This document shows, in pieces, positions 23,120-55,397 of a stretch of 64,000 nt of DNA. Where the stretch lies: assembly GCF_016125515.1 (NCBI RefSeq), contig NZ_WGLO01000009.1, forward strand, positions 1 through 64,000, read 5' to 3'. A program made the position numbers and the translations under genes. Source of the stretch: Hyphomonas sp. Lineage in GTDB: Bacteria; Pseudomonadota; Alphaproteobacteria; Caulobacterales; Hyphomonadaceae. Position 1 is the first letter of the stretch. Every line of letters starts with the position of its first letter. Below the pieces are notes generated by a model. That model did not search any database. It was not told the origin of the DNA and worked only from the letters and a program-made list of their open reading frames with translations.

Positions 23120-25090
23120 ATGGCTGTCACTAATCGCGACATGGCAAATGCCGTGCGGGCGCTGTCCATGGACGCCGTCGAAGCTGCAAAATCGGGCCAT
23201 GTCGGCCTGCCTCTGGGCATGGCGGACGCCGCAACGGTGCTGTTCCGCAAATTCCTGAAGTTCGATCCGAAAGATCCGGCCTGGCCGGACCGAGACCGTT
23301 TCGTGCTGTCGGCGGGTCACGGGTCGATGCTGATCTATTCGTTGCTGCACCTGACCGGCTACAAATCGGTCTCGCGCGACGATATCCGCAATTTCCGCCA
23401 GCTGGGCGCAAAGACGCCGGGGCATCCCGAGAATTTCGTGACCGCCGGTGTCGAGACGACGACCGGGCCGCTGGGGCAGGGCATTGCCACGGCCGTTGGC
23501 ATGGCGATGGCCGAGCGCCACCTCAATGCACGGTTCGGCGACGATCTGGTCGATCACCGCACCTGGGTAATCGCGGGCGATGGCTGCCTGATGGAAGGCG
23601 TGAGCCAGGAGGCGATCACGCTGGCCGGGCACCTGAAGCTGAACAAACTGATCGTGCTGTTCGACGACAATGCGGTGACCATCGACGGGTCGACCGACCT
23701 GTCCGATTCGACCGATCAATGCATGCGCTTCGAGGCTTCAGGCTGGGTGACGCGCCGTGTGAGCGGACATGACGAGAAAGACGTGGCCGACGCGCTTAAA
23801 TGGGCGACGAAGCAGAAGAAGCCGGTTTTCCTGGCGGTGAAAACGATCATCGGTTTCGGAGCGCCGAAACTGGCCGGGACCGGCAAGGCCCATGGCGGCC
23901 CGTATGGCGCCGAGGAGATTGCCGGCATTCGTGAGACGCTCGGTTGGCCTCACGCGCCGTTCGAAGTGCCCGAGGCCATCGAGAAAGCCTGGGAGAAGGC
24001 GGGCGAGCGCAGCCGCGAGGACCACGCGGCCTGGAAGAAACGCCTGGCCGCCAGCCCGCACAAGGGCGAGTTCAATGCCGCGATTGCCGGCCGCCTGCCG
24101 AAGAATCTCGCCAAGGCCGTGGCCAAGCACAAGAAGGCCGTCGTTGAAGGCGGCGCCTCCAAGGCTACGCGCGTGTGGAGCGGCGAAGCGCTTGAAGTGA
24201 TCACGCACCTGGTGCCGGAAATGGTTGGCGGTTCGGCCGACCTGTCAGGTTCGAACAATACCAAGACCAGCTCCACGGCGCCGATGACGCCGAAGAGCTG
24301 GGACGGGCGCTATATCCATTACGGCGTGCGCGAGCATGCGATGGCGGCGGCGATGAACGGCATGGCGCTGCATGGCGGCATCATTCCGTATTCGGGCACG
24401 TTCCTCGTGTTCGCCGATTACAGCCGCGCTGCGATCCGGCTCGGCGCGCTGATGGGTCTGCGTGTGGTGCACGTGATGACCCACGACTCGATCGGGCTGG
24501 GCGAAGACGGGCCAACCCACCAGCCGGTGGAACAGATCGCGTCGCTGCGCGCGATGCCGGACATGCTGGTGTTCCGCCCCGCCGATGGTGTGGAGACGGC
24601 CGAGTGCTGGGAACTGGCGCTGGCGCGTCAGGAGGGGCCATCCACGATGGCGCTGACCCGCCAGAATGTGACGCCGGCCCGCAAGACGCATACGGACGAA
24701 AACCTCTCCGCCAAGGGAGCCTATGTCCTCTCACCGGCAAAGGGCAAGGAGCGCGGCGTGCTGATCGCGACGGGCTCGGAAGTTGAGATCGCGCTGAAGG
24801 CACAGGCGCTGCTGGCAGCAGAAGGGATCGGCGTGCGCGTCGTGTCGATGCCGTCGATGGAACTGTTCGGCCAGCAGGATGCGGCCTACCAGCAGACGAC
24901 GCTGGGCAAGGGCTTACCCAAGGTTGCCGTCGAAGCCGGTGTCCGGTTTGGATGGGATCGCTGGATCGGTGCCGAGGGCGGTTTTGTCGGCATGGGCAGC
25001 TTCGGCGCGAGCGCGCCTTACCAGCAGCTCTACAAGCATTTCGGCATCACGGCGGAAGCCGTCGCCGAGAGCCTCAAGGCGCGGATCTAG
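23120..25090 (+). CDS. tkt: Transketolase
   Basis: Transketolase moves two-carbon units between sugar phosphates in the pentose phosphate pathway using thiamine diphosphate. The 656-residue product begins MAVTNRDMANAVRALSMDAV. The ThDP/Mg motif GDGCLMEGVSQEA and the substrate histidine in SAGHGSMLIY are present, and the pyrimidine domain has GGSADLSGSN and YGVREHAM. I chose ATG 23120, since the upstream in-frame extension is not homologous. Its last four bases overlap the convergent citrate-synthase-like gene. Confidence 0.97.
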   Translation: MAVTNRDMANAVRALSMDAVEAAKSGHVGLPLGMADAATVLFRKFLKFDPKDPAWPDRDRFVLSAGHGSMLIYSLLHLTGYKSVSRDDIRNFRQLGAKTPGHPENFVTAGVETTTGPLGQGIATAVGMAMAERHLNARFGDDLVDHRTWVIAGDGCLMEGVSQEAITLAGHLKLNKLIVLFDDNAVTIDGSTDLSDSTDQCMRFEASGWVTRRVSGHDEKDVADALKWATKQKKPVFLAVKTIIGFGAPKLAGTGKAHGGPYGAEEIAGIRETLGWPHAPFEVPEAIEKAWEKAGERSREDHAAWKKRLAASPHKGEFNAAIAGRLPKNLAKAVAKHKKAVVEGGASKATRVWSGEALEVITHLVPEMVGGSADLSGSNNTKTSSTAPMTPKSWDGRYIHYGVREHAMAAAMNGMALHGGIIPYSGTFLVFADYSRAAIRLGALMGLRVVHVMTHDSIGLGEDGPTHQPVEQIASLRAMPDMLVFRPADGVETAECWELALARQEGPSTMALTRQNVTPARKTHTDENLSAKGAYVLSPAKGKERGVLIATGSEVEIALKAQALLAAEGIGVRVVSMPSMELFGQQDAAYQQTTLGKGLPKVAVEAGVRFGWDRWIGAEGGFVGMGSFGASAPYQQLYKHFGITAEAVAESLKARI

Positions 25091-26217
25091 ACGCCGACAT
25101 AGTTCGCACGCGGACGGATGGGGCGCGCGCTGGCGCGTTGCTCCATGGCGTGTGCGATCCAGCCGGCCATGCGTCCGCTGGCAAAGATCAGGAATGGCGC
25201 GTCGTCCGGAAGGGAAAGCTGCACGCTGAGCGCGGCGAGCGCCATGTCGATGTTCGCCGCTTCGCCTGAGGCTTCCTCTGCAGCGCGTACGGCGCGCTTG
25301 AGGTCTGCGGCCGGCTTCATCCAGCGCAGGAGCGCGGCGGCGCGCGGATCGCCGGCCGGATACAGCGTGTGTCCGATGGCGGGAATGCGCTCGCCGCGTG
25401 CGGCGATGCGGGCGAGGGCGGCGGCCGGGTCATCGTCCATTGCGGCGCGAAGGTAAGTTAGCGCGCGGGCGGAGGCCTCACCGTGCAACGGGCCAGTCAG
25501 CGTGGCGCAGCCGGCGAGCGCGCAGGCCGCGAGCGGCGCGCCGGTGGAGGCCGCGACCCGCGCGGCGAAGGTGGACGGGTTTAGTTCATGGTCGGCCACG
25601 AGCACCAAAGCCCGGCGCACCAGATCCGTGCCGCCCGGCGTGAGGCCCCAATGGCGGCCGAGACGCTGGTGGAAGAAGCCGCGCCCTCCGGCACCCGTAA
25701 TCGCTGCGCCGAAGCCGGCCAGGAGGTCGCTGCCTTCGGCGGCGAGGGCTGCAGCGCCCCGCGCAAAGCTCGGCGCATCGGAAGCGGCGTGTGAGGCGAG
25801 GTAGGCGAGTGCACGCATCTTGCCGGAGTCGCCATCCGGCACGCTGGACACGGCACGCGGCGGGGGCAGCGCGCGGGCATTCCAGAGAAGGGCGGCAGCC
25901 TCTTCGAGTGTGGCATCGGCGGCGAGACGTACCGCATCCTTGCCGCGATAGATCAGCTTTCCGCCCTGCACCGTGGTTATGGCTGTTTCCATCACCGGTT
26001 CGCCCCAGGCGATGGCAGCGCGGGCAATCGCCTGCCTCCCGCGCCCGCTGCGGCGGCGTTTGACAAGGGCAGCAATATCCGCAGCGGCATAGAGGCTGGC
26101 GCGCGGATCGTCCGCGTCCGGCTTCGAGGCGATCAGGCCCCGGCTGACATAGGCGTACAGTGTCTGGGGTTTCACGCCCAGTTCTTCCAATGCCTCTGAG
26201 CGTCCGATCCACATCAT
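25087..26217 (-). CDS. Citrate synthase paralog with N-terminal helix-turn-helix
   Basis: This 376-residue protein joins a MerR/HTH_17-like DNA-binding domain (MMWIGRSEALEELGVKPQT..., residues 1-50) to a citrate synthase fold. The citrate synthase motifs are HELNPSTFAARV, the substrate histidine region GPLHGEA, AIGHTLYP and NIDMAL, the last probably supplying the catalytic Asp. It could be an active enzyme, a metabolite-sensing regulator, or both. Its start codon lies inside tandem TATATTGAT repeats and it is divergent from a second paralog, which suggests it controls both genes. Confidence 0.85.
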   Translation of the reverse strand: MMWIGRSEALEELGVKPQTLYAYVSRGLIASKPDADDPRASLYAAADIAALVKRRRSGRGRQAIARAAIAWGEPVMETAITTVQGGKLIYRGKDAVRLAADATLEEAAALLWNARALPPPRAVSSVPDGDSGKMRALAYLASHAASDAPSFARGAAALAAEGSDLLAGFGAAITGAGGRGFFHQRLGRHWGLTPGGTDLVRRALVLVADHELNPSTFAARVAASTGAPLAACALAGCATLTGPLHGEASARALTYLRAAMDDDPAAALARIAARGERIPAIGHTLYPAGDPRAAALLRWMKPAADLKRAVRAAEEASGEAANIDMALAALSVQLSLPDDAPFLIFASGRMAGWIAHAMEQRASARPIRPRANYVGV

Positions 26218-26250
26218 ATATTGATTATATTGATCAAGATTGACGTTGAC
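26217..26250. promoter_or_regulatory. Tandem repeats between two citrate synthase genes
   Basis: TATATTGAT occurs twice back to back (26217-26225, 26226-26234), and further TTGA units follow at 26240 and 26247. The second copy runs into the 8-bp palindrome TTGATCAA (26230-26237). This AT-rich block lies in the gap between the divergent starts and touches the start codon of the HTH-citrate synthase. A binding site for that protein's HTH domain is a reasonable inference. Confidence 0.45.
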
Positions 26251-26292
26251 CAGCCCCTGCGCGACATACGGCTCAAGAAAAGGAGACCGAAC

Positions 26293-27360
26293 ATGGATAC
26301 CGGGCTTGAAAATGTCGTTGCTGCAGAAACGGTCCTTTCGGACGTAGACGGACAGAATGGACGTCTTGTGATCCGTGGCTGGCCGGTAGAAATGCTAGCC
26401 GCGTCGATGGCGTTCGAGGATGGGGCGCACCTCTTGTGGCAGGGCATGTTCGATACGCTGCCGGATGTTCGTGCGCTGGGCGCCCGTATCGGCGCGGCGC
26501 GGGCGGACGTGTTCGCGCATGTGGCCGAGATTCCGGACGGTCTGGATGTGATTTCCTTCCTGCGGGTGGGCTGGGCCATGCTGCCGGACGACGAAAGCCT
26601 TGACGCGGCGATCCGACTTTCGGCTGCAGGCGCCGTGTTCACCGCAGCCGCCATCCGCCGGGCAAGAGGCGAAGCGCCGATTGCGCCCGATCCGGATCTG
26701 TCACACGCAGCCGACTTTCTCCGTATGCTGACCGGACGGGTGCCCGATCAGGCCGAAGCCCGGGCGCTCGACGCCTATCTTGTCACGGTGTGCGACCATG
26801 GCCTGAACGCCTCGACCTTTGCAGCGCGCGTGGTGGCCTCGACGCGGGCCGGCCTGGTCTCGGCTGCGGTTGCGGGCCTGTCGGCCCTCAAGGGGCCGCT
26901 GCATGGCGGCGCCCCCGGGCCGGTGCTCGACATGATCGATGACATCGGTGCGCCGGAAAATGCCGAAGCCTGGATCGACGGGGCGCTGGGACGGGGCGAG
27001 CGGCTGATGGGGTTCGGTCACCGCGTCTACCGCGTGCGCGATCCGCGCGCCGACGCGCTCAAGGCGGCCGTCGCACGCCTGCCGGGCACATCAGGCCGCA
27101 TCCGGTTTGCGGAACATATCGAACGCGCGGTGCTCGGACGGCTCGCGAAGAAATACCCGCAGCGCAAGCTCGAGACGAATGTGGAGTTCTACACTGCATT
27201 GCTGCTGGAAGCTCTCGGCCTGGCGCGCGATGCGTTTACGCCGGTATTCGCCTGTGGCCGTGTGCTGGGCTGGACGGCGCATGCGCGCGAGCAGATCGGG
27301 GAAGGGCGGCTCGTGCGGCCGCGCTCGGTCTATCGAGGCCCGGTGCCTGTGCCGGCCTGA
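26293..27360 (+). CDS. Citrate synthase / 2-methylcitrate synthase paralog
   Basis: This 355-residue citrate synthase family protein has DHGLNASTFAARVVAST, PLHGGAP (oxaloacetate-binding His) and MGFGHRVYRVRDPRA (second catalytic His). The third catalytic position reads ETNVEFYT, with Glu298 where classical enzymes have Asp in NVDFYSG; I recall the same Glu in the citrate synthase 2 branch. AAAAGGAGA precedes ATG 26293. Whether it uses acetyl-CoA or propionyl-CoA cannot be told. It is paired with the divergent HTH-fused paralog. Confidence 0.85.
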   Translation: MDTGLENVVAAETVLSDVDGQNGRLVIRGWPVEMLAASMAFEDGAHLLWQGMFDTLPDVRALGARIGAARADVFAHVAEIPDGLDVISFLRVGWAMLPDDESLDAAIRLSAAGAVFTAAAIRRARGEAPIAPDPDLSHAADFLRMLTGRVPDQAEARALDAYLVTVCDHGLNASTFAARVVASTRAGLVSAAVAGLSALKGPLHGGAPGPVLDMIDDIGAPENAEAWIDGALGRGERLMGFGHRVYRVRDPRADALKAAVARLPGTSGRIRFAEHIERAVLGRLAKKYPQRKLETNVEFYTALLLEALGLARDAFTPVFACGRVLGWTAHAREQIGEGRLVRPRSVYRGPVPVPA

Positions 27361-28470: not shown

Positions 28471-29358
28471 ATGGCCAGCGCATACGAGTCCCATACGCCT
28501 GCAGATCGCCAGTATCTGCGCACTGCAATGAAAGTTGCGCTGCTTGAGCCCGCGCATGAGGCAGACCTGGCCCGGCGCTGGCGCGAGCAGGATGACGAGG
28601 CGGCCCTCCACGAGCTCACGACCGCCTATATGCGCCTGGTGATCGCGATGGCCTCCAAGTTCCGGCATTACGGCCTGCCGATGGCGGACCTGGTCTCCGA
28701 AGGCAATGTCGGCCTGATGCAGGCGGCCGCCCGGTTCGAACCGGAACGCGAGGTGCGCTTCTCCACTTATGCCAGCTGGTGGATCCGGTCTGCGATCCAG
28801 GACTATGTGCTGCGCAACTGGTCGATCGTCCGGACCGGGACAACGTCGGCGCAGAAATCCCTGTTCTTCAACCTGCGCCGTCTGCGCGCGCGCATTGCCG
28901 ACACGGGAGACGGCATCATGACGCCGGAGAACCGGGAATGGGTGGCGACACATCTCGGCGTGCCGGTGCGCGATGTCGAGACGATGGCTTCGCGCCTGTC
29001 GGGCGCCGACCGGTCGCTCAATGCGCCGATGTCTGCAGACGGAGACGCCGAATGGCAGGATCTGATCGCCGATGAAGCCGCGATCCCTGAACAGTCGGTC
29101 ATGGCGCGGCGCGACGCCGAGAAACGCCGGGTGTGGATCGCCGAAGCGCTGAAATCCCTGAACCCGCGCGAGATGGACATCATCACGCGGCGTCGCCTTT
29201 CCGACGAGCCGATGACGCTGGAAGCGCTTGGCGCAGACCTCGGAGTCTCCAAGGAGCGCGTGCGCCAGATCGAGCATCAGGCGCTGAGCAAGCTGCGCAA
29301 GGCGCTGGAGCGCATCGTCGGTGACCCGGAAGCCTCGGGCCTTATTCCGGAGACGTAA
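28471..29358 (+). CDS. rpoH: RNA polymerase heat-shock sigma factor RpoH
   Basis: This is a group 3 sigma-32-type factor of 295 residues. Region 2 shows LVSEGNVGLMQAAARFEPEREVRFSTYASWWIRSAIQDYV split across residues 72-111. The RpoH box QKSLFFNLRRL (about 128-138) separates it from housekeeping sigma factors. Region 4.2 carries the HTH LEALGADLGVSKERVRQIEHQAL. GGGAGG lies upstream of ATG 28471. Its end overlaps a convergent small gene by 17 bases. Confidence 0.95.
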   Translation: MASAYESHTPADRQYLRTAMKVALLEPAHEADLARRWREQDDEAALHELTTAYMRLVIAMASKFRHYGLPMADLVSEGNVGLMQAAARFEPEREVRFSTYASWWIRSAIQDYVLRNWSIVRTGTTSAQKSLFFNLRRLRARIADTGDGIMTPENREWVATHLGVPVRDVETMASRLSGADRSLNAPMSADGDAEWQDLIADEAAIPEQSVMARRDAEKRRVWIAEALKSLNPREMDIITRRRLSDEPMTLEALGADLGVSKERVRQIEHQALSKLRKALERIVGDPEASGLIPET

Positions 29359-29706: not shown

Positions 29707-29783
29707 GATCCCGTAGCTCAGCAGGATAGAGCGACAGATTCCTAATCTGTAGGCCGCGCGTTCGAATCGCGCCGGGATCACCA
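29707..29783 (+). tRNA. tRNA-Arg (anticodon CCT)
   Basis: A full cloverleaf can be folded. The acceptor stem GATCCCG/CGGGATC is perfectly paired, the D arm is GCTC..GAGC, and the anticodon stem ACAGA/TCTGT holds the loop TTCCTAA with CCT at 29741-29743. The T stem GCGCG/CGCGC carries the TTCGAAT loop. The discriminator A and encoded CCA end at 29783. It reads AGG codons. Confidence 0.95.
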
Positions 29784-29789
29784 TTCGCC

Positions 29790-30875
29790 TCAGGTTTCGG
29801 GGGTGAGGGTTCCGCAGCGGATGTCGTAGATGATGGCTGTGTCGGTGCGTGACAGCGCGGCGCTGCGGGCCGTGTCGGGCTGGATCGACCGCGCGATATC
29901 GCGGCCGGGCGCGACCGGGTTCATGAAGACGCGCTCGCAAAAGCGCGCGTCCGGACGGGCGGCGGCGAGGATGCCGCGCCAGCAGGCATCGTAAGCCGCT
30001 TGCCCGCAATAGGAGCCAAAATCCGACAGCGAGAACGCGTCGAACCGGCCAAGACCTGCTTCGCCGAGGCCGGCGAGCCCGGCTTCGGCAATCGTGATCC
30101 GGTCCAGTGCCGCGCGCACGGCGCCGAGGTTTTCCGGCCGGATATGCAGGGGCAGGGCGCCGCCCGGCTCATGGCGGCCCAAGAACAGAAGGGCGGCGAA
30201 GTCGGATTCGCGGAAGAAGATGGTCTCCGACGCGCGCCGGAACAGGCCGGTGAGCCGTGCCTCGCTTTCCGGTGGCGGCGGCAGGAAGGCACCGCCGGGC
30301 TCCCCGATGATCCGCGTCCAGAACCAGCGCTGGGACAGGAGACGCACCGCGCCGTGCCAGACGGCGTCGTCGAAATGCGCGCGCCAGATCGCCGCCTGGT
30401 CCTCCAGCGTCGACGCGCCGAACAGATCTGAGATATGCCGCCCACGGATCAGGCGTGTTCCGGCCGCCCCAAGGCGGAGCACCCGTTCCCACCGACCGGA
30501 CTGCCAGACGCCGCCCGCGATGGCGCCGCGCCGTTTGTGCCAGAAGGCGCGCGATTGCGGCTCCAGGTGCACCTCGACCTGGCGATGCAGATCCAGGCGG
30601 TGGCGCGTGGGCGCGAGACCGAGATAAGCGTGCAGCGCTTCGTCACCGAGAGCGCGATAGGCAGCGATTTTCAGCCGGAGGAGCTCGTTCTGGGCCGGGT
30701 TGATGTCGATGGAGGTGATCTTCGCCGGCGCGCCGAGCAGGAGGTCGAGCGGGCGTGCGCCGCTGGCGGTCAGGCAGAGCACATGATCGGCCGGGGTCAG
30801 CGACAGCGCCGCGAGCTCGGTTGCGCCATCTTCGTTGGCGGAGGTGAAATTCAGGGTACGTTCGAAGCCGGCCAC
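29790..30875 (-). CDS. BtaA-like (DUF3419) 3-amino-3-carboxypropyl transferase
   Basis: The 361-residue protein belongs to DUF3419, the family of BtaA, which transfers the 3-amino-3-carboxypropyl group of S-adenosylmethionine to diacylglycerol in betaine-lipid synthesis. The SAM-binding region is clear: VLCLTASGARPLDLLL, then SIDINPAQNELLRLKIAAY. No BtaB methyltransferase follows, and the gene is the last of a minus-strand run with a ligase, an SDR and a ketosynthase. The acceptor is therefore probably not ordinary diacylglycerol, although that is inference. It starts four bases after the preceding stop. Confidence 0.8.
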   Translation of the reverse strand: MAGFERTLNFTSANEDGATELAALSLTPADHVLCLTASGARPLDLLLGAPAKITSIDINPAQNELLRLKIAAYRALGDEALHAYLGLAPTRHRLDLHRQVEVHLEPQSRAFWHKRRGAIAGGVWQSGRWERVLRLGAAGTRLIRGRHISDLFGASTLEDQAAIWRAHFDDAVWHGAVRLLSQRWFWTRIIGEPGGAFLPPPPESEARLTGLFRRASETIFFRESDFAALLFLGRHEPGGALPLHIRPENLGAVRAALDRITIAEAGLAGLGEAGLGRFDAFSLSDFGSYCGQAAYDACWRGILAAARPDARFCERVFMNPVAPGRDIARSIQPDTARSAALSRTDTAIIYDIRCGTLTPET

Positions 30876-30879
30876 AAGT

Positions 30880-31734
30880 TCAGACTTTCAGCAGGATGCG
30901 TGACGGCGGGGCGACGGGCCGCCGTCCGTCCAGAACGGCGTCGATGCCGGGGCGCAGCAGGTCTTGCGGCGCGTAAACCAGTGGCGGTGCGGTGTGCGTG
31001 GCCCGGTTCTCGCCGATCAGTTCCAGGATCGCGCGGTCTTCCGCGAAGATGCGCACAAAAAACAGTCTCAGGGCGAGGAGCTTGAGCGCGGCGAGCGCGC
31101 CTTGCCCCGGTACGGCAAATGTTGCCGCGACATAGGTTTCGCGCGTTGAAACGGGCGTCAGCCGGAACCGGGCCGCGAAGACCGGCTTTCCATCTTCCGT
31201 GTACGAGACTTCGGCGACGCCAGGCGCGCGGAACGCATCGGTGATCGTGTAGCGATGCGCACCGAGCAGCCGCGCGCCCCAGCCGCTGGGCGCGGCGCCG
31301 GGCGGATAGGTCGCGGAGATCCAGTCTGAGCCGGACGTCACATGGGCCTCGATCGCGCGGCGCGCGCCGGGGCGGCGCAGATAGCCGCTGTGCACGACGC
31401 TGGTATGGGTCGTGTCGAGGATATTCTCGCCGACGTCGCCGATGCCGGCCCTGACGTGACCTTCGATCTGGAGTGCGCGGAAGGGAGAGGGGATCAGGAC
31501 GCCGGCTTCGGGCGGCCGAGGTGGCGTCGCGCCCAGGGCGGCGAAGATCCACCCGTCCTGCGCTATGGCGGCCAGGCGCTCTGCGGTTGCGGCCGTCCTC
31601 GCTTCCGGCAATCCATCCGGCCCGCGCGAGAGGTGCACCTCTGTGCCGCAAAGCGTTCGCGTCGAGGGGCGCTCGCGCAGGTCCTTGGCCCGCATCAACG
31701 GATACCAGCCGGGAAGGGCGTGGGTCTCGATCAC
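30880..31734 (-). CDS. Rieske-oxygenase homolog lacking the iron-sulfur ligands
   Basis: This 284-residue protein aligns by eye with ring-hydroxylating oxygenase alpha subunits. The mononuclear iron motif is intact (ENILDTTHTSVVH: Asp107, His110, His115). The N-terminal Rieske domain begins normally (LCGTEVHLSRGPDGLPEA) and ends normally (DGWIFAALG). The part that should hold CxH...CxxH is missing and replaced by a short Ala-rich stretch. Without a [2Fe-2S] cluster it cannot receive electrons in the usual way; it may use another reductant or act as a binding or hydrolytic protein. Stop and start overlaps link it to the ligase gene. Confidence 0.75.
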   Translation of the reverse strand: MIETHALPGWYPLMRAKDLRERPSTRTLCGTEVHLSRGPDGLPEARTAATAERLAAIAQDGWIFAALGATPPRPPEAGVLIPSPFRALQIEGHVRAGIGDVGENILDTTHTSVVHSGYLRRPGARRAIEAHVTSGSDWISATYPPGAAPSGWGARLLGAHRYTITDAFRAPGVAEVSYTEDGKPVFAARFRLTPVSTRETYVAATFAVPGQGALAALKLLALRLFFVRIFAEDRAILELIGENRATHTAPPLVYAPQDLLRPGIDAVLDGRRPVAPPSRILLKV

Positions 31735-32984
31735 GCTGCGGACCTGCGTTCGCGCACCACGCGGCGAAGCTTGCCGCCTGTGGGCGCAGCGAGCGGGGCC
31801 GTCGCGGCCTTCACGGTTGCGGCGGCGCCGAGACGCGCGAACAGGGTCTCCAGACCTTGCTGCGCGGCGGGCAGCGCTGGTGCGCTGTCCGGCGGCAGTG
31901 TCAGCATGACGGCGCCGTCTGGCGTCTGGGTGACGCGGAAGTCGGTGATGATGCGGTCCGCGCCGACGACCGCGTTGCGGATGACATCCGGCGTCACGGT
32001 CACGCCGCCCGCGAACAGGAAGGCATCATCGCTGCGTCCGGTAATTTCTGAGACCGCCTGCAGGGGCGAGCCGCACGGGCAGGGCGTGTCCGACAGGTGG
32101 AGAAGATCATTCATCCAGTAACGGACCATGATCTGCGTGCGGCGTGTGAAGTCGGTGATCAGCGGCGAAGACAGGCCGGCTTCTGTTTCCCATTCGAAGG
32201 CGACACAGTCTTCGCAGAGATGCAGCGTGCCGTGCGGGCAGGCGACGGCGAAGAGGCCTTCGGTCGCCATGTAGATCTCCCGAACGGTCAAGCCAAAACG
32301 GGATTCGATTTCTGAACGATCCGCCGGATCCAACACCTCGGCGCCGGAGAAGACATGGCGCAAGTCAAGCGGCAAGCCGGTCCGCGCCAGGGCGACCAAG
32401 ACGTGCGGCGGCGCCACGATCACATTCGGTCGGAACGCTGCCATATCCATGAACTGGTTCTCGAGGCCGTTCGACAAATCAAAAAATTTGAGCGCCAGGC
32501 GCCGCGACTCGTTTGCCGCGTCGTACAGCCGGCTGCTGCGCGGCAGCATCACGGCCACGCGGTAGCTCGCCGACAGGACATCGGGCAGCGCCTTTGCGAG
32601 CAGGGTGCCGAGCCAGAGGTATCGCTCCTGGTCGCTGACGAGATACAGGCCTCGATTTCCGCTTGTGCCCGTGCTGGCGCCGACCGAGTAGCGCCCGATG
32701 CGCCCGGCTGTCTCGAGGGCTTGCCAGGCGCGGTCGGCGGCAATGCCCGCAATATTGTACGCTTCGAAGCGGTCCATCAAAGCGGTCTTGTCCATCACAG
32801 GGAAGTCCGTGAGCGGATGGCCGGCGAGGTCAGCGAAGGCTGCGGCCTTCGGAGCTTGCCGGGTTAGGAAATGATTTAGGCGGCCCCCCTGCCAGTCGAG
32901 CAAGGCCGCGCGCGTGCGCAGGCGCCGGGCCCTTGCCTTCGTGCGCCAGAAGGCGGTCAGCGTCAAGATGAGCGCCGGGCTCAT
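31731..32984 (-). CDS. PaaK/F390-synthetase-like adenylate-forming enzyme
   Basis: This 417-residue ANL-superfamily protein resembles phenylacetate-CoA ligase and F390-synthetase-related proteins. The phosphate-binding loop is SVGASTGTSGNRGLYL, the mid-domain motif is EIYMATEGLFAVACP, and the hinge region is SDTPCPCGSPLQAVSEITGRSDD with the conserved GRxDD. It probably activates a carboxylic acid as an acyl adenylate for transfer to CoA or another acceptor. It overlaps both neighbours by four bases. The substrate is unknown. Confidence 0.82.
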   Translation of the reverse strand: MSPALILTLTAFWRTKARARRLRTRAALLDWQGGRLNHFLTRQAPKAAAFADLAGHPLTDFPVMDKTALMDRFEAYNIAGIAADRAWQALETAGRIGRYSVGASTGTSGNRGLYLVSDQERYLWLGTLLAKALPDVLSASYRVAVMLPRSSRLYDAANESRRLALKFFDLSNGLENQFMDMAAFRPNVIVAPPHVLVALARTGLPLDLRHVFSGAEVLDPADRSEIESRFGLTVREIYMATEGLFAVACPHGTLHLCEDCVAFEWETEAGLSSPLITDFTRRTQIMVRYWMNDLLHLSDTPCPCGSPLQAVSEITGRSDDAFLFAGGVTVTPDVIRNAVVGADRIITDFRVTQTPDGAVMLTLPPDSAPALPAAQQGLETLFARLGAAATVKAATAPLAAPTGGKLRRVVRERRSAA

Positions 32985-33760
32985 TCGGCGGGTTCCGGAT
33001 CATGGCAAAGGACAACCCGTCCGCCGGCGGCCGCAAACGCGTTGAGACGTGCGGCGGTTTCTCGGCCCGCTTCGGGATCATCAAGGATCCACCGTGCCGG
33101 CGCCCGGGGTGAGCGGTCTTCGCGGATGGCCCGGGCGAGCCAGTCAGCATCTCCGGCATAAAGCACAGGCACGGGCTGCTTCGCGAAGAGGTATCCCGTG
33201 TGGCCGCGCATGTGACCGGGCAGGGGAACGGCCAGGACTTCACCGTCGCCGAACACGTCGCGCGCGGGCCCGAGGCCGAAGGGAGCTTCGATCTGTGCCA
33301 GTGTGCTCAGGCCGACGATCCGCTTACGGAAATCATCCGGCAGGAGTTCCTTGAACACGCCGTGCCGGGTGCGGGAAATGTCGCCCGCCTCCAGAAAATG
33401 CGCGGCGGCCGCGGCGTCTGCCACCAGCTTCGCCTCCGGATAATCGCGCAGCGCCGAGATGTGATCGGCGTGCAGGTGTGTCAGGAGGATCGTATCAGCT
33501 TTCGGGCAGGCCGGTGGAAGCGCAAGCGGCGTCAGCCGGGGGCGGAGGATCGCGGCGTAGAGCGTGAGCGGTAGCGAACGGGTCCCGGACGTCACGCGGG
33601 CTGAGTAACCCGTGTCGATGAGGCAGGTGCCTGCACGCGAATGGCTGAACTGCGCATAGCGGACAGCCAGATCGATCTGTGTCCAGCGCCCGCCGCGCAG
33701 GACAAGACGTTCCGGAACGCGCACCGTCGCACTGTTGGGGAAGCTGAGCCCGGTGATCAT
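32981..33760 (-). CDS. MBL-fold hydrolase of the biosynthetic run
   Basis: The 259-residue product has all the metal ligands of an MBL hydrolase: LLTHLHADHISAL (HxHxDH), PLPGHMRGHTGYLF, YAGDADWL and VVLCHDPEP. The layout is close to that of lactonases and thioesterase-like members. ATG 33760 was chosen because it overlaps the SDR stop (ATGA); longer readings add non-homologous sequence. In this setting it could open a lactone or release an acyl chain, which is inference. Confidence 0.82.
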   Translation of the reverse strand: MITGLSFPNSATVRVPERLVLRGGRWTQIDLAVRYAQFSHSRAGTCLIDTGYSARVTSGTRSLPLTLYAAILRPRLTPLALPPACPKADTILLTHLHADHISALRDYPEAKLVADAAAAAHFLEAGDISRTRHGVFKELLPDDFRKRIVGLSTLAQIEAPFGLGPARDVFGDGEVLAVPLPGHMRGHTGYLFAKQPVPVLYAGDADWLARAIREDRSPRAPARWILDDPEAGRETAARLNAFAAAGGRVVLCHDPEPAE

Positions 33761-34728
33761 GCCGTCGCCCCGAACGTCCGCGCCAGCCCATCCTCGAAGG
33801 CGATGCGCGGGGTCCAACCGAGATGCGTGCGTGCCGCTGTCAGGTCGAGTGTCTGGGTAAAGGTGAAGAGGCCCGCGCCATAGGCTGTCACTCGTGGTTC
33901 GGGCTGACGGGGATGGAGACGGGCGGCGAGTTCCAGCGCGCGGGCAGCGCCCAACACCAAGCCGGACGGCATCGTCCGCCAGCGGACGGTCAAGCCGGCC
34001 CGGGCGCCCGCCGCTTCGGCAATTCGGCGGACGGGCAACGGCTCACCGCCGGATATGTTGAACACGCGCTGCGCCAGGCCCTCCGGCGCGGCGAGCGCGG
34101 CACACACCGCCTCGACCGCGTCGTCGATATAGGTGAGATCGGTCTCGGCGCGCCCGTCCCGCACCAGAGGCAGTGGACCGGCGCTCGCGGCGCGGAGCAG
34201 TCTGGGCAGCAGTGCTGTGTCCCCCGCGCCGTAAAGGCCGCGCGGGCGCAAGACGATGACATCGAGATCCTCCGCCGAGAGCGCCAGCCGTTCCGCCTCG
34301 CCCTTGGTGGCCGCGTAGGCGTTGACGGACGGCGGCAGGACGGCGTCTTCGCGCACCATCGGCTGGTCGCGGAAACAGAAGTAGAGGCTCGGCGTCGAGA
34401 TATGCACAAAGCGGCGCGCGCCGGTGTCCCGCGCGAAGGCGAGCGCGCGGGCTGTTCCGTCAACGTTCGCCGCACGGAAAGCCGCCTTGGGCCCCCAGGC
34501 GGACGACAGGGCTGCACAATGCACGACCGCGCTGACCGGCTGTTCCGGCAAGGGCGGCGCGCTCTGGGCGAGATCGTTGCGAACTGTCGCCGCGCCCCGC
34601 GCTGCGAGCGCATCCAGTTTGGCCGCGTCGCGGCCGAGGGCGATCACGGGTTGGCCGGCGGCCAGCAATCGGCGGCAGAGCGCGCCGCCCAGAAATCCGG
34701 TTGCGCCCGTGATGGCGATTGCGGCCAC
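33757..34728 (-). CDS. Extended SDR (3-beta-HSD/epimerase-like)
   Basis: The 323-residue protein has the nucleotide-binding motif ITGATGFLGGALCRRLL and the extended-SDR core VVHCAALSSAWGP, HISTPSLYF and the catalytic pair in AYAATKGEAERL (YxxxK). Related enzymes include 3-beta-hydroxysteroid dehydrogenases and OleD-type 2-alkyl-3-ketoacid reductases. Next to a ketosynthase III homolog, reduction of a beta-keto product is plausible. It overlaps the MBL gene by four bases and follows the ketosynthase stop by three. Confidence 0.82.
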   Translation of the reverse strand: MAAIAITGATGFLGGALCRRLLAAGQPVIALGRDAAKLDALAARGAATVRNDLAQSAPPLPEQPVSAVVHCAALSSAWGPKAAFRAANVDGTARALAFARDTGARRFVHISTPSLYFCFRDQPMVREDAVLPPSVNAYAATKGEAERLALSAEDLDVIVLRPRGLYGAGDTALLPRLLRAASAGPLPLVRDGRAETDLTYIDDAVEAVCAALAAPEGLAQRVFNISGGEPLPVRRIAEAAGARAGLTVRWRTMPSGLVLGAARALELAARLHPRQPEPRVTAYGAGLFTFTQTLDLTAARTHLGWTPRIAFEDGLARTFGATA

Positions 34729-34731
34729 GGG

Positions 34732-35778
34732 TCAGGTCTCCAGGATCGCTCCGGCGAGGGAGACGCCGGCTGAGGTTCCGACCAGAAGGATCCGCATGCC
34801 GGGCCGCACGCGTCCTTCAGCCCGCGCCAGGCAGAGCGCGACGGGTATCGATGCAGCCACCTGGTTGCCGATGGTCCGTACCCGGTCGAAGACGCGGTCG
34901 GGGGCAAAGCCGCCGCGGCGGATGATGTGGGTCAGCGCGTGCGGGCTGGCCTGGTGCGGCACGACCAGATCGATGTCGTCCCGGCGCAGGCCGGCCTTGG
35001 CGAGCAACCGGTCGAGAAAGCCGGGCAGTGCGGCGGCCGTGATGCGGTAGAGCGCCTTGCCGTCCATCCGGAAATAGGCGTTGCGGGCGAAAGCTTCTGG
35101 ATCGCGGTGAAAGTCAATCCCGGTGCCGCCCGCCGCCAGAGTGCAGGCTTCATAGCCGCCGGCGTAGGTCTCCATATGGAAGCCTCCGAAGCGCGCGCCC
35201 TCGCCGGACGGAGCGCCAGGCGCGCTGACTACGAAAGCCGCTGCGCCATCGCCGAACAGGCCGGCCGTTTCGGGCGCATCGCTCCAGGGCAGCGCGCGTG
35301 ACGCGATCTCCGACGTCACGACAAGCACATGTTTCACCCTCCCGGCGGCGATCTGCAGCGTGGCAAGGTCCAGCGCGACCATCGTGCTGAGGCATGTCGC
35401 GTTCACGTCATAGGCGGGGAACGCAAGTTGACCGCCGCCCAGCTCGCGCTTGACGAGGGCCGCCGTGGCCGGGATCGGCTGACGGCCGACGGAAGCGCCA
35501 AACAGCAGCAGGCCGATATCTTCGAGCGCCAGACCGGCATCGCACAGCGCCGCGCGGGCCGCCTCCGCCGCGAGGCTTTCCTGCGTCTCGTGCGAAGCGG
35601 CGACGTGTCGGCTGGCAACGCCGCAAGCCGCTTCCAGCCAGCCGGACGGCTTGCCTAGCTGCAGATCAATATCTGCCGATGGTCTCAGTTCTGCAGGCAG
35701 CGCAGCGCCGAAGCCAGCGAGGCAAGGGCTGGTGGCAGGCAAGGCGGCTGGCCGCAAACGCTCAATGTGAGTGAACAT
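34732..35778 (-). CDS. 3-oxoacyl-ACP synthase III (FabH/OleA-like)
   Basis: This 348-residue thiolase-fold enzyme has the complete Cys-His-Asn triad of the KAS III group: Cys129 in VNATCLS, His275 in VPHQASPH and Asn305 in TIGNQVAAS. It condenses two acyl thioesters. It is not a housekeeping FabH by context, since its neighbours are an SDR, a hydrolase, an adenylating enzyme and a P450. A near-consensus promoter (35785-35813) ends six bases before the ATG, so the mRNA may be leaderless. No Shine-Dalgarno sequence is seen. Confidence 0.85.
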   Translation of the reverse strand: MFTHIERLRPAALPATSPCLAGFGAALPAELRPSADIDLQLGKPSGWLEAACGVASRHVAASHETQESLAAEAARAALCDAGLALEDIGLLLFGASVGRQPIPATAALVKRELGGGQLAFPAYDVNATCLSTMVALDLATLQIAAGRVKHVLVVTSEIASRALPWSDAPETAGLFGDGAAAFVVSAPGAPSGEGARFGGFHMETYAGGYEACTLAAGGTGIDFHRDPEAFARNAYFRMDGKALYRITAAALPGFLDRLLAKAGLRRDDIDLVVPHQASPHALTHIIRRGGFAPDRVFDRVRTIGNQVAASIPVALCLARAEGRVRPGMRILLVGTSAGVSLAGAILET

Positions 35779-35784
35779 TTACGT

Positions 35785-35813
35785 ATTATACTGCGGATTT
35801 GAAACCCTTGCAA
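35785..35813 (-). promoter_or_regulatory. Near-consensus promoter for the ketosynthase gene run
   Basis: On the minus strand TTGCAA (35808-35813) and TATAAT (35785-35790) are separated by exactly 17 bases. Only six bases then remain before the ATG at 35778, so transcription should begin at or next to the start codon. This gives the six genes from the ketosynthase to the DUF3419 gene their own promoter, independent of the P450 gene. Confidence 0.6.
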
Positions 35814-35839
35814 GCAGGCCTCTGCCGGAGGCTGGGGCG

Positions 35840-37102
35840 TCAGGTGAGGGAGAGGCGCAGGCTCCGGAATCCGACAAAGCCGATGGTCGGTCGGTCGCGC
35901 ACGGCGGGCGCAGCGAGGCGCAGGCGCGGATAGCGCGAGGCCAGCAGCCGCAAGGCGATCTCGATCTCCAGCCGCGCCAGCGGCGCACCGAGGCAAGCAT
36001 GCGCCCCGCCTCCGAAGGCCGCGTGATCCCGCCGGCCACGGCGGATGCGAAAGGCGTGTGGATCCTCGAAAGCTTCCGGATCCCGGTTTGCGCCCAGCAA
36101 CGAGACGACGACCGCCGCGCCCTTCTTCACCGGGCACCCCAGGATATCCCGGTCCTCCGGCACATAACGCGCCGCAATCGCCACGGGCGGGCCATAGCGC
36201 AACAACTCCTCGGTCGCCGGCACGGCAAGATCGGGATCGACGACCAGCGCGGCCCATTCGTCCGGATGCGTGATCAGCGCGTGCAGGCCATTGCCGATCA
36301 CATCGGCAGTCGTGAGGTTTCCGGCCAGCAGAAGCAGCAGGAGAAGTGAGGAGACTTCTGGATCGGTCAGCGTGTCGCCGCCATCCTGTGTGTGGATGAT
36401 CGCGGAGAGCAGATCCTCCGAGGGCTGACGGCGCCGGCGCGCGATCTGTTCCGCGAAATAGGCGTCGAGCCCCGCAAAGGCAGCCATCTGCCTGCGGTCT
36501 TCATCCGGCGAACGCAGCGGATTGAACACGAAGATCAGGTCTTCCGACCAGGCGCGGAATTGCGGCATGTCGGCTCGCGAAAAGCCCAGCATGTCGCCGA
36601 TCACGTAGATCGGATAGGGCGCTGCAAACTCGGCAATCGCATCGAAATCCGGTTTTGCGGCTGCCTCTTCCAGAAGACGCGCCGCGATCGCTTCGATCTC
36701 GCCGCGTTTGGTGGCAATGGATTTCGGCGTGAAAGCACGCGACACGAGACTGCGCACGCGCCGGTGCTCGGCGCCGTCCATGTAGAGCAGGTTGCCGTGC
36801 GGCGCCGGGTCCAGCATGGCCGGCGGCGCAAACGACCGGGCCAGCGATCCGAGCGGCGTCTTGCGCGGATCGCGTTGATACGTGGCGTCCGAAAAGATCG
36901 CCCGCACGTCTTCAATCCGCGTCAGGTACAGACCCGTCGGGGCTTGGGGGAAATGCGCATGGGCGTGGATGTGCCGGGGCGCTTCCTGTCTGAGCCGGTC
37001 AAGGATCGGATGGGGATCCTGCAGGAAGTGCGGGCTCAGTTCCGTCAGCTCGAAACCGTTCGGCAGGGCAGCCGTCTCGGGGCAGGCGCTCAACTCTGAC
37101 AA
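35840..37102 (-). CDS. Cytochrome P450
   Basis: The 420-residue soluble bacterial P450 has the heme-ligand loop FGGGAHACLGAP (Cys370), the I-helix LLLAGNLTTAD with the conserved Thr, and the K-helix ExxR in TEELLRYGP. I chose a TTG start at 37100-37102 because GGAGG lies six bases upstream; the in-frame extension to 37159 adds a non-homologous leader. No ferredoxin or reductase gene is nearby. It lies 61 bases before the ketosynthase gene and is the first gene of the run, divergent from the membrane protein at 37254. Confidence 0.92.
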   Translation of the reverse strand: MSELSACPETAALPNGFELTELSPHFLQDPHPILDRLRQEAPRHIHAHAHFPQAPTGLYLTRIEDVRAIFSDATYQRDPRKTPLGSLARSFAPPAMLDPAPHGNLLYMDGAEHRRVRSLVSRAFTPKSIATKRGEIEAIAARLLEEAAAKPDFDAIAEFAAPYPIYVIGDMLGFSRADMPQFRAWSEDLIFVFNPLRSPDEDRRQMAAFAGLDAYFAEQIARRRRQPSEDLLSAIIHTQDGGDTLTDPEVSSLLLLLLLAGNLTTADVIGNGLHALITHPDEWAALVVDPDLAVPATEELLRYGPPVAIAARYVPEDRDILGCPVKKGAAVVVSLLGANRDPEAFEDPHAFRIRRGRRDHAAFGGGAHACLGAPLARLEIEIALRLLASRYPRLRLAAPAVRDRPTIGFVGFRSLRLSLT

Positions 37103-37253: not shown

Positions 37254-37877
37254 ATGACACGTACAGATTCCCTCTCGAGCGATCTCGCCTATGTCCGGGA
37301 TCTCGCCGAAGCCGGCCAGAACGCCCCCCTGCTCGGGGGCCGGTTCCTGGCCTGGTGGGGCGGTCTGATGACGCTCGCTTATGTTGGCCATTTCTTGATT
37401 TCGTCGGGCATGCTCGGCGTCGGGCCGCAGACGCTGTGGATCTGGTGGGCCGGCATGGTTGGCCTCGGTCTGGCGGGCCAGTTCCTCCTGCAGGCCAGCA
37501 TTCCGGCAAAACCGGGCGCCTCCTCGGCCGGCAATCAGGTCCAGTCCACACTCTGGACGTGCGCCGGCTTCGTGCTCTTTGCTTATTTCGTGGGCGTGAT
37601 CGCCCGCGTGGCGCTGTTCAAGGATGGTTGGGAAGGCTTCAACTGGTCCGTTCCCATGGTGATCGGCCTCTATGGTCTCGGCCAGTTCGTCACGGGCCTG
37701 ATCGCCAGGCAGCCTGCCCTCCGCTTCGCCGGTACCGCGGCGCTGTGCGGCGCAGCTGTAGCGGGCGCGCTGTCGGGCACGGACTATGTGTGGCTTGTCG
37801 GTGCGGGCGTTGCCTTCATTGCCGTCTGTGTTCCTGGCCTCGCGATGCTCCGCAACGAGCCCGGCACGACCGTCTGA
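37254..37877 (+). CDS. Hypothetical polytopic membrane protein
   Basis: The 207-residue protein has about six hydrophobic helices spread over residues 30-200 and a short charged cytoplasmic N-terminus (SSDLAYVRDLAEAG). I chose ATG 37254 because GGAG lies six bases before it; ATG 37242 is upstream without such a site. It is followed after ten bases by a winged-helix regulator. Small membrane proteins are often paired with regulators of this type, but the function is unknown. Confidence 0.7.
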   Translation: MTRTDSLSSDLAYVRDLAEAGQNAPLLGGRFLAWWGGLMTLAYVGHFLISSGMLGVGPQTLWIWWAGMVGLGLAGQFLLQASIPAKPGASSAGNQVQSTLWTCAGFVLFAYFVGVIARVALFKDGWEGFNWSVPMVIGLYGLGQFVTGLIARQPALRFAGTAALCGAAVAGALSGTDYVWLVGAGVAFIAVCVPGLAMLRNEPGTTV

Positions 37878-54299: not shown

Positions 54300-55397
54300 T
54301 TGCCGGACAGCCAGCCGATCCCCGCAACGACCGGAATCACGGAAGAGGGCTACCTCACCGATTGCTGGTAGCTGGCCGCGCCTTCGGCGCACCTCAAGCC
54401 CGGCAAGCAGCAGCGCCTGATGATCCTCGGCGAACCGGTTGTGGTCGGCCGCACGCCGGGCGGTGACGCCTTCGCCCTGCGCGACATCTGCCCCCACCGC
54501 CTCGTGCCGCTCTCGGCGGGCCGGCAGCTTGAAACGAACGGCGAGTGGACGCTGCAATGCCCGTATCACGGCTGGCGCTTCGGCACCGACGGCGGCTGCC
54601 GGCTGATGCCCAGCCTGACCGACGACAGCCCCTACGACCCGACCAAGGTCAAGGTGCGCCGCTACCCCGTCCATGAGGCAAACGGCGCGGTCTACCTTTA
54701 TGTCGCGCACGATCCGCGCTCGGCCGCGCCGCCGGCCGTACCGCCGCCGGATTTTGGTCCGCTCCCGGACAAACCCGGCTTCGTCATCGAAGACGAATTC
54801 AACGCCCATATGGACGACGCCGTCGTCGGCCTGATGGATCCCGCCCACGTGCCCTTCGTGCATAACCAATGGTGGTGGCGCCCGCCGTCTGCCGGTCTGA
54901 AACTCAAGGAAAAGCCCTTCATCCCCACCGAGCGCGGCTGGGCCATCGACCGTCATGCGCCCTCGTCGAATTCGAAACTCTACCGCTGGGTCTTCGGCGG
55001 CAGCGTGCAGACCGAGATCCGCTTCCAGCTGCCGGGCTATCGCTGGGAAATCATCTCCAACGATACCGCGCGCCTCCTCACGCTCACCTGCCTGACGCCA
55101 GAGGCGCCAAAGAAGACCCGCATCACCCAGTTCACCTGGTGGACGGGCGCGCCGCTGCTGCAGCTCGCGGTGCCGCTCGCCAAACGCATGGGCGCCAAAT
55201 TCCTCTCGCAGGATGGCACGATGGTCGACCTGCAGAACCAGGGCATGGCGCACCAGAAGGCGATGCTCTGGATCGACGATATCGACGTGCAGGCCAAATG
55301 GTACCAGCAGCTCAAACGCGAATGGACCGCCGCCCGCACCGAAGGCCGAGACTTCGCGAACCCCATCCAGCCCCGCGTGCTGAAGTGGATGAGCTGA
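54300..55397 (+). pseudogene. Rieske ring-hydroxylating oxygenase gene interrupted by an amber codon
   Basis: From TTG 54300 the frame reads PDSQPIPATTGITEEGYLTD then CW, a TAG stop at 54369-54371, then LAAPSAHLKPGKQQRLMILGEP. Family members have WYLA here, so a Tyr codon has become TAG. The rest is intact: Rieske ligands in CPHR and CPYHGW, and the iron motif DPAHVPFVH. TTG 54300 is the only start after the previous in-frame stop. Translation could restart at ATG 54420, losing 40 residues including the first strand, but no good ribosome-binding site is seen there. A tight gap follows the chagasin gene. Confidence 0.75.

Follow-up and report, generated by a model that had tools for sequence, protein, structure and literature searches.

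In a 64,000-nucleotide stretch of a Hyphomonas sp. genome (contig NZ_WGLO01000009.1, positions 1 to 64,000; hereafter the window), seven genes on the minus strand run from position 29790 to 37102. Within this run the stable unit is a four-gene core, encoding a ketosynthase III (KAS III), an extended short-chain dehydrogenase/reductase (SDR), a metallo-beta-lactamase-fold (MBL) hydrolase and an F390-synthetase-related adenylate-forming enzyme (the ligase), and the seven genes represent, in Hyphomonas, one version of a wider family in which a head-type gene is exchanged beside that core. We favour the reading that the core builds a hydroxylated acyl scaffold to which a BtaA-like protein adds a homoserine-type head, and we rate its chances of being right as about even. 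The genes, the core, the swapping of heads, the loss of cluster motifs in the Rieske-like protein and the selection acting on the genes were all computed directly.

The source genome is 3.22 Mb and 99.98% complete. Gene order and strand are as described in an initial annotation of this DNA, and all seven proteins score above curated family cut-offs (bit scores, cut-off in brackets):

35840..37102, minus strand: cytochrome P450, 420 aa, TTG start after GGAGG, heme motif FGGGAHACLG; PF00067, 93.3 bits (22.8)
34732..35778, minus strand: KAS III, 348 aa, core gene 1; ACP_syn_III_C, 88.2 bits (26.6)
33757..34728, minus strand: extended SDR, 323 aa, core gene 2; Epimerase, 119.7 bits (20.9)
32981..33760, minus strand: MBL hydrolase, 259 aa, core gene 3, HLHADH at 95; Lactamase_B, 33.8 bits (22.7)
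31731..32984, minus strand: F390-synthetase-related adenylate-forming enzyme, 417 aa, core gene 4; TIGR02304, 263.9 bits (251.9)
30880..31734, minus strand: Rieske-oxygenase homologue without [2Fe-2S] ligands, 284 aa, keeping ENILDTTHTSVVH; VanA_C, 29.5 bits (23.5)
29790..30875, minus strand: BtaA-like DUF3419 protein, 361 aa, predicted S-adenosylmethionine (SAM) 3-amino-3-carboxypropyl transferase; DUF3419, 153.9 bits (28.2)
29707..29783, plus strand: tRNA-Arg(CCT), the downstream border of the cluster, ending 6 bp from the BtaA-like gene

The genes are closely packed. The P450 and KAS III genes are 61 bp apart, KAS III and SDR 3 bp, and the Rieske-like and BtaA-like genes 4 bp, while the SDR–MBL, MBL–ligase and ligase–Rieske-like junctions are 4-bp overlaps. 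A clear KAS III orthologue (E 3.4e-75 or better) was present in 21 of 100 relatives; elsewhere the best matches were at E 4e-44 or weaker, FabH-like and, among the matches listed, no more than 37% identical. The neighbourhoods of all 21 orthologues were compared. Six share the window arrangement, which we call type A. In 12 the order KAS III–SDR–MBL–ligase is followed by a UGT-like glycosyltransferase gene and an opposed DedA-like gene, two have an ATP-grasp gene (one of these, L036, with no F390 gene on its 7.4-kb contig), and in the remaining one (L027) the KAS III gene lies at a contig end.

All six type A sisters keep the six genes from KAS III to BtaA together, and four keep all seven. 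They also share one chromosomal site, between the genes at window positions 28471 (a sigma factor by eye) and 37254 (for L028, 38266). The tRNA-Arg(CCT) is found at this site in every sister, adjoining the BtaA-like gene in five and lying farther away in L032. G023, a member of the genus that lacks the cluster, carries a deletion scar (L137:9149-9547): the flanks are the same, the tRNA-Arg(CCT) is there and 49 residues still match the N-terminus of the P450. No near DNA match was found on plasmids. The ratio of nonsynonymous to synonymous substitution rates (dN/dS) is well under 1 for all seven genes: pairwise YN00 values were 0.04–0.18 where computable (pairs among L029–L031 and, between the window and L028, the P450 and KAS III genes only), and the NG86 maximum was ∼0.25, for the Rieske-like gene between the window and L028. 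The seven genes belong together, and their grouping exceeds chance, because the sisters keep the run, the core recurs across loci and dN/dS is low. The proposal that they form one biosynthetic-looking unit is supported, and in the sisters the seven families are not scattered. As a separate observation, a Cys/Met-metabolism pyridoxal-phosphate enzyme is encoded near the BtaA-like gene and tRNA in five of the six sisters (L029–L033), and not in the window or L028; PF01053 was tested in L030 and the others were assigned by similarity.

Beyond the sisters it is the four-gene core that persists. When 84,980 species genomes were searched with an alignment of the ligase, 151 relatives were returned, and the best 80 of these 151 were annotated with profiles, counting matches of at least 60 bits. 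The 80 loci include the six type A sisters (L048, L049, L051–L054) and L050, a second, partial locus from the metagenome-assembled genome of L048; the L051 record is titled Candidatus Sulfopaludibacter, but its contig is of Hyphomonas type and the organism label is probably wrong. The core is complete in 76 of the 80 loci, the other four (L050, L069, L093, L104) being cut by contig ends. Gene order varies, with the ligase on the opposite strand to KAS III in 10 loci and the SDR last in L076. These counts are not independent of one another, since Mesorhizobium accounts for 17 of the 80 record names and most of the query came from Hyphomonadaceae and Maricaulaceae.

The head genes fall into alternative classes: ATP-grasp (41 loci), UGT (14, of which 13 have DedA), BtaA-like (14), sulfotransferase (4) and none recognised (7). 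Two recognised classes never occur together in the 80 loci, although unprofiled heads could escape this count. Among these last seven, L050, L069, L103 and L122 are cut, L076 has a GT21-type gene and a UGT-like gene below threshold, and in L085 and L087 none was recognised. The BtaA-like gene in such a setting, which had looked new, is therefore not a one-off; it stands in place of an ATP-grasp, glycosyltransferase or sulfotransferase gene. Rieske-family genes are present in 36 of the 41 ATP-grasp loci and in 10 of the 14 loci with BtaA, whereas the 18 with a UGT or a sulfotransferase have none. The GNAT-like protein g5 (matching PF13480 in L108, with no Pfam match in L080) occurs in 40 of the 41 loci of ATP-grasp type and in 4 of the 14 of BtaA type, and BtaA occupies the place that ATP-grasp has beside g5 and Rieske genes in other loci. 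One Sphingomonadaceae locus (L119:3715-12375) carries two different BtaA-like genes.

To map the head labels, a tree was built from the concatenated core (77 rows, the window plus 76 loci; 1357 columns; IQ-TREE, LG+G4, short search), with L103 and L122 left unlabelled. Ten label changes were needed in total, compared with a mean of 32.9 after shuffling. Six of the changes involve BtaA, five of them forced by branches starred in the tree, and UGT and sulfotransferase account for one each. The claim that the seven genes are a unit stands for the sisters; for the wider family the unit is the core.

The core also extends well outside this group. The ligase profile matched 60 of 398 genomes of the phylum, ten of them, including the window genome, at E 1.2e-80 or better. 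Among the other nine, the core was present in the seven examined (L184–L190, the SDR of L188 appearing as two matches) and in G097 (L047), G287 having been left out. Weaker F390 relatives were considered as carriers and rejected: four of the 50 were examined (L191–L194, E 1e-34 to 1e-25) and none has the core. A protein search of plasmids gave ligase matches in 26 records, and four of five examined contain the core, in Rhizobium (with GNAT, Rieske and ATP-grasp), Ketogulonicigenium (with a sulfotransferase nearby), Paenibacillus (with ATP-grasp and GNAT) and Escherichia coli; the fifth, from P. amygdali, has a ligase gene but no core. After the E. coli core come genes for PAP2, a protein of the sterol-desaturase/fatty-acid-hydroxylase family and a desaturase, at a site between narI and tRNA-Tyr/purU (three records: L196, L200, L201); the locus of strain Nissle 1917 is L200:6001-12882. 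Of 5,426 genomes of E. coli, 672 have core DNA, that of Nissle 1917 among them, at 671 chromosomal and 2 plasmid places, in a collection in which strains are unevenly sampled.

The Rieske-like protein departs from its family. It had been annotated as Rieske-like; this applies to the catalytic domain only (VanA_C), with no Rieske family among its Pfam matches and the [2Fe-2S] motif absent. Alignment to full-length relatives shows that neither the window protein nor the type A loci have the segment with CxH and CxxH. When full frames are considered, the motifs are present in 42 of the 49 loci that have the gene, and the seven without them are exactly L048–L054. Two other apparently Rieske-less proteins, outside type A (L088, L111), proved to be start-codon artefacts, with the motifs present in the full frame. 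In contrast to the [2Fe-2S] motifs, the mononuclear-iron motif is kept. D107, H110, H115 and D233, which we take to be the mononuclear iron site, are invariant in 14 aligned proteins, and the residue pattern fails in one of 47 proteins (L081). ENILDTTHTSVVH is identical in two Maricaulis proteins that retain the Rieske domain and have BtaA.

The former Rieske region evolves faster than the catalytic domain (omega 0.26–0.38 versus 0.11–0.15; NG86, three pairs). An AlphaFold2 model (mean predicted local distance difference test score, pLDDT, 83) has a Rieske-oxygenase fold closest to dicamba monooxygenase, with template modelling (TM) scores to the query of 0.73 and 0.75 in the top two rows. The protein therefore shares a predicted fold and the mononuclear motif with dicamba monooxygenase and other Rieske oxygenases, but in every type A member seen the [2Fe-2S] ligands are missing together with the segment that holds them. 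NdmC, a demethylase without a Rieske domain of its own, is a precedent for such a protein. A P450 profile built from type A matched in 5 of the 80 loci, all type A, with L054 in fragments, and the P450 may have taken over an oxidation. Its 56 solved relatives at E 1e-50 are headed by PksS, with P450BioI fourth. Elsewhere in the window, 17 kb from the cluster, lies a gene for a 325-aa Rieske oxygenase-like protein with a VanA_C domain (54420-55394). We considered it as a partner and rejected it: it is ∼29% identical to the best-matching cluster Rieske proteins, and it matches in all 42 genus genomes (in 40 the match is strong and full-length, in G029 it is in pieces and in G039 it is weak) and so does not track the cluster. 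At 25087-27360 the window also has two divergent adjacent genes, citrate-synthase-like by eye.

The BtaA-like protein is the genome's only DUF3419 match. DUF3419 is the family of BtaA. Residues that do not vary across 16 DUF3419 proteins, two of them from outside the core, include E15-D16, D57 and Q62 of DINPAQ, and LSD283-285. SAM use is likely, because most of the 50 fold matches listed for its confident model (pLDDT 92) are SAM methyltransferases by title, though weak (TM ∼0.2–0.3 to the query). The family assignment points to aminocarboxypropyl as the group that would be transferred, and the homoserine-type head originally suggested is plausible. Among 200 genomes of the order, DUF3419 exceeds its cut-off in six: two are type A, two are Maricaulis (L181 and L182, apparently the same contigs as L058 and L056, arranged core–Rieske–BtaA) and two have it outside the core (L180, L183). 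The cluster protein is 24–25% identical to the last two. These lie in another conserved operon (L180:6190-14330 and L183:4398-12526), which in both encodes an AMP-binding enzyme and a PPDK_N protein, and also contains a gene for an unassigned ∼440-aa protein; a UbiA match was found in L180, the only one of the two searched for it.

How might these enzymes act together? We infer every chemical step, and the lipid nature of the product, from the families and residues just described. Condensation, reduction, release, activation, oxidation and head transfer are proposed because the KAS III triad is kept, the SDR is nearest OleD and the adenylation-type motifs of the ligase are conserved. C129, H275 and N305 of the KAS III, presumably the catalytic triad positions, align with identical letters in CorB and FabH entries, so that Cys-His-Asn is present. 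The KAS III would condense an acyl thioester, the OleD-like SDR would turn the 3-keto group into a hydroxyl by reduction, the MBL hydrolase would free the acid from its thioester, and the ligase would adenylate the acid and load it onto coenzyme A (CoA) or an acceptor, giving the hydroxylated acyl scaffold. In the Hyphomonas variant the P450 may add a further oxidation and BtaA would attach the aminocarboxypropyl (homoserine-type) head; in relatives a sugar, a sulfate or a group ligated by ATP-grasp would take its place. A nucleophile such as an OH would be the target of UGT, sulfotransferase and BtaA alike. The Rieske-type protein, having lost its electron-relay motifs, would, if it works at all, be a mononuclear-iron protein fed by another partner. 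A lipid product is suggested mainly by the relatives, since a fatty-acid hydroxylase, desaturase(s) and PAP2 occur in the enterobacterial type and a DedA/VTT protein adjoins the UGT-type loci.

The alternative that survives best, although we think it unlikely, is that the product is an aromatic or small signal-like ketide made in the manner of PqsA/PqsD/PqsE: the ligase would activate an aryl acid, the KAS III extend it, the MBL protein release it as a thioesterase and the SDR reduce it, with the heads as tailoring. A ligase, a KAS III and an MBL protein together are the Pqs toolkit, and these three are what the cluster has in common with alkylquinolone synthesis. All eight solved relatives found with the ligase profile at E 0.001 are phenylacetate-CoA/PaaK-like ligases, AjiA1 and 2-hydroxyisobutyryl-CoA synthetase, and the KAS III matches the 'PQS biosynthetic enzyme' 3h76, which we take to be PqsD, at E 8.9e-29. 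However, CorB and several FabH entries outscore 3h76, the core here includes an SDR, and relatives carry swappable heads together with lipid-modifying genes (DedA, PAP2, a membrane fatty-acid hydroxylase, desaturases) that suggest a long-chain lipid.

Less probable still is an Ole-type route, in which head-to-head condensation leads to 2-alkyl-3-hydroxy acids, the ligase closes a beta-lactone and the MBL protein opens or processes it. The gene set does recall OleACD, and the synthase–SDR–ligase logic noted in the initial annotation, with an MBL protein replacing the alpha/beta hydrolase, remains apt: OleABCD olefin/beta-lactone clusters likewise group genes for a thiolase-superfamily synthase, an adenylate-forming enzyme and an SDR of the OleD kind in a single run. 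The best NCBIfam model for the SDR is OleD (2-alkyl-3-oxoalkanoate reductase), but its 185.5 bits are far under the equivalog cut-off of 580; the SDR has no solved relative at E 1e-20. The KAS III matches 3row (presumably OleA) at E 2.7e-16, but CorB and FabH-type entries score far above it, so that the protein assigned as 'KAS III/OleA-like' is closest by sequence to these and not to OleA. The position of the OleA catalytic Glu is probably Ile here. In place of OleC there is a TIGR02304 ligase that reaches 19.9 bits against Pfam AMP-binding (cut-off 29.9) and has no OleC model among its NCBIfam matches, in place of OleB there is the MBL protein, none of the seven genes encoding an alpha/beta hydrolase, and head-group genes are added. 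A lactone-opening role for the hydrolase, as once suggested, looks weak, its scores against the AidB and AttM N-acyl homoserine lactonase equivalogs being 34.9 and 28.1 bits for cut-offs of 360 and 390.

It is very unlikely that the cluster is a betaine-lipid pathway with BtaA as the producer of diacylglyceryl homoserine and the remaining genes as bystanders. The protein belongs to the same Pfam family as BtaA, with motifs common across DUF3419, and a passage of PMC10491745 names BtaA as the betaine-lipid aminocarboxypropyl transferase. No BtaB methyltransferase was found among the seven genes or in the gene at 37254, the rest of the genome not having been searched for it, and there is no second DUF3419 protein; furthermore, BtaA-like genes lie beside the core in 14 of the 80 loci, in several families, and here in tight spacing within the KAS III–SDR–MBL–ligase run. 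The non-core proteins of L180 and L183, used as comparators, may themselves not be BtaA. A catabolic or detoxification operon is the least credible alternative: P450s, oxygenases, hydrolases and CoA ligases are each common in catabolism, but a condensing ketosynthase and head-type transferases alternating on a constant core fit building.

Several observations weigh against the favoured pathway of scaffold building and head transfer. No solved fold reaches E 0.001 with the BtaA-like model and no solved sequence relative was found at E 1, so it is the family that indicates the transferred group. L085 and L087 have the core and contig room to spare but no recognised head gene; the core may therefore work headless, or the profiles may have missed the heads. 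The enterobacterial type likewise lacks a recognised polar-head transferase. In the genus the cluster is accessory, with six of 41 relatives having type A, nine the UGT type and 26 neither, and the P450, intact in four of the six sisters, has no match in L031 and is in three separate pieces in L033. Finally, single placements in the core tree are unsure, because some rows gave long-branch and odd-composition warnings; the tree search was also a quick one.

The cluster is a KAS III-based biosynthetic cluster, and in that sense of a known sort, whilst the wider core family is apparently undescribed. We found no description of the core in the literature searched (titles and abstract openings, partly best-listed matches only), and no paper linking DUF3419 with 'biosynthetic gene cluster'; subscription journals are thinly covered there, which makes these absences weak, and the E. 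coli genes may appear under other names. The broadest form of the proposal is more tentative than the pathway itself, and we would sooner expect parts of it to fail than the whole to hold: a cross-phylum, undescribed family of acyl-lipid pathways with one four-enzyme core and alternative polar heads (homoserine ether, amino-acid, sugar, sulfate), present in about one-eighth of complete E. coli genomes, with a Hyphomonas Rieske oxygenase working without its cluster beside a newly added P450.

If this is true, a whole class of acyl compounds made by bacteria, probably lipids, has been overlooked, because the gene names (F390 or CoF synthetase, 3-oxoacyl-ACP synthase III, epimerase) mislead. Since E. 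coli Nissle 1917 carries the core, the question can be tested in a tractable strain, and the natural swapping of heads is a built-in readout of the role of each head enzyme. A conserved Rieske oxygenase without a Rieske cluster would, in turn, be a rare natural case for studying how electrons are supplied to mononuclear iron enzymes.

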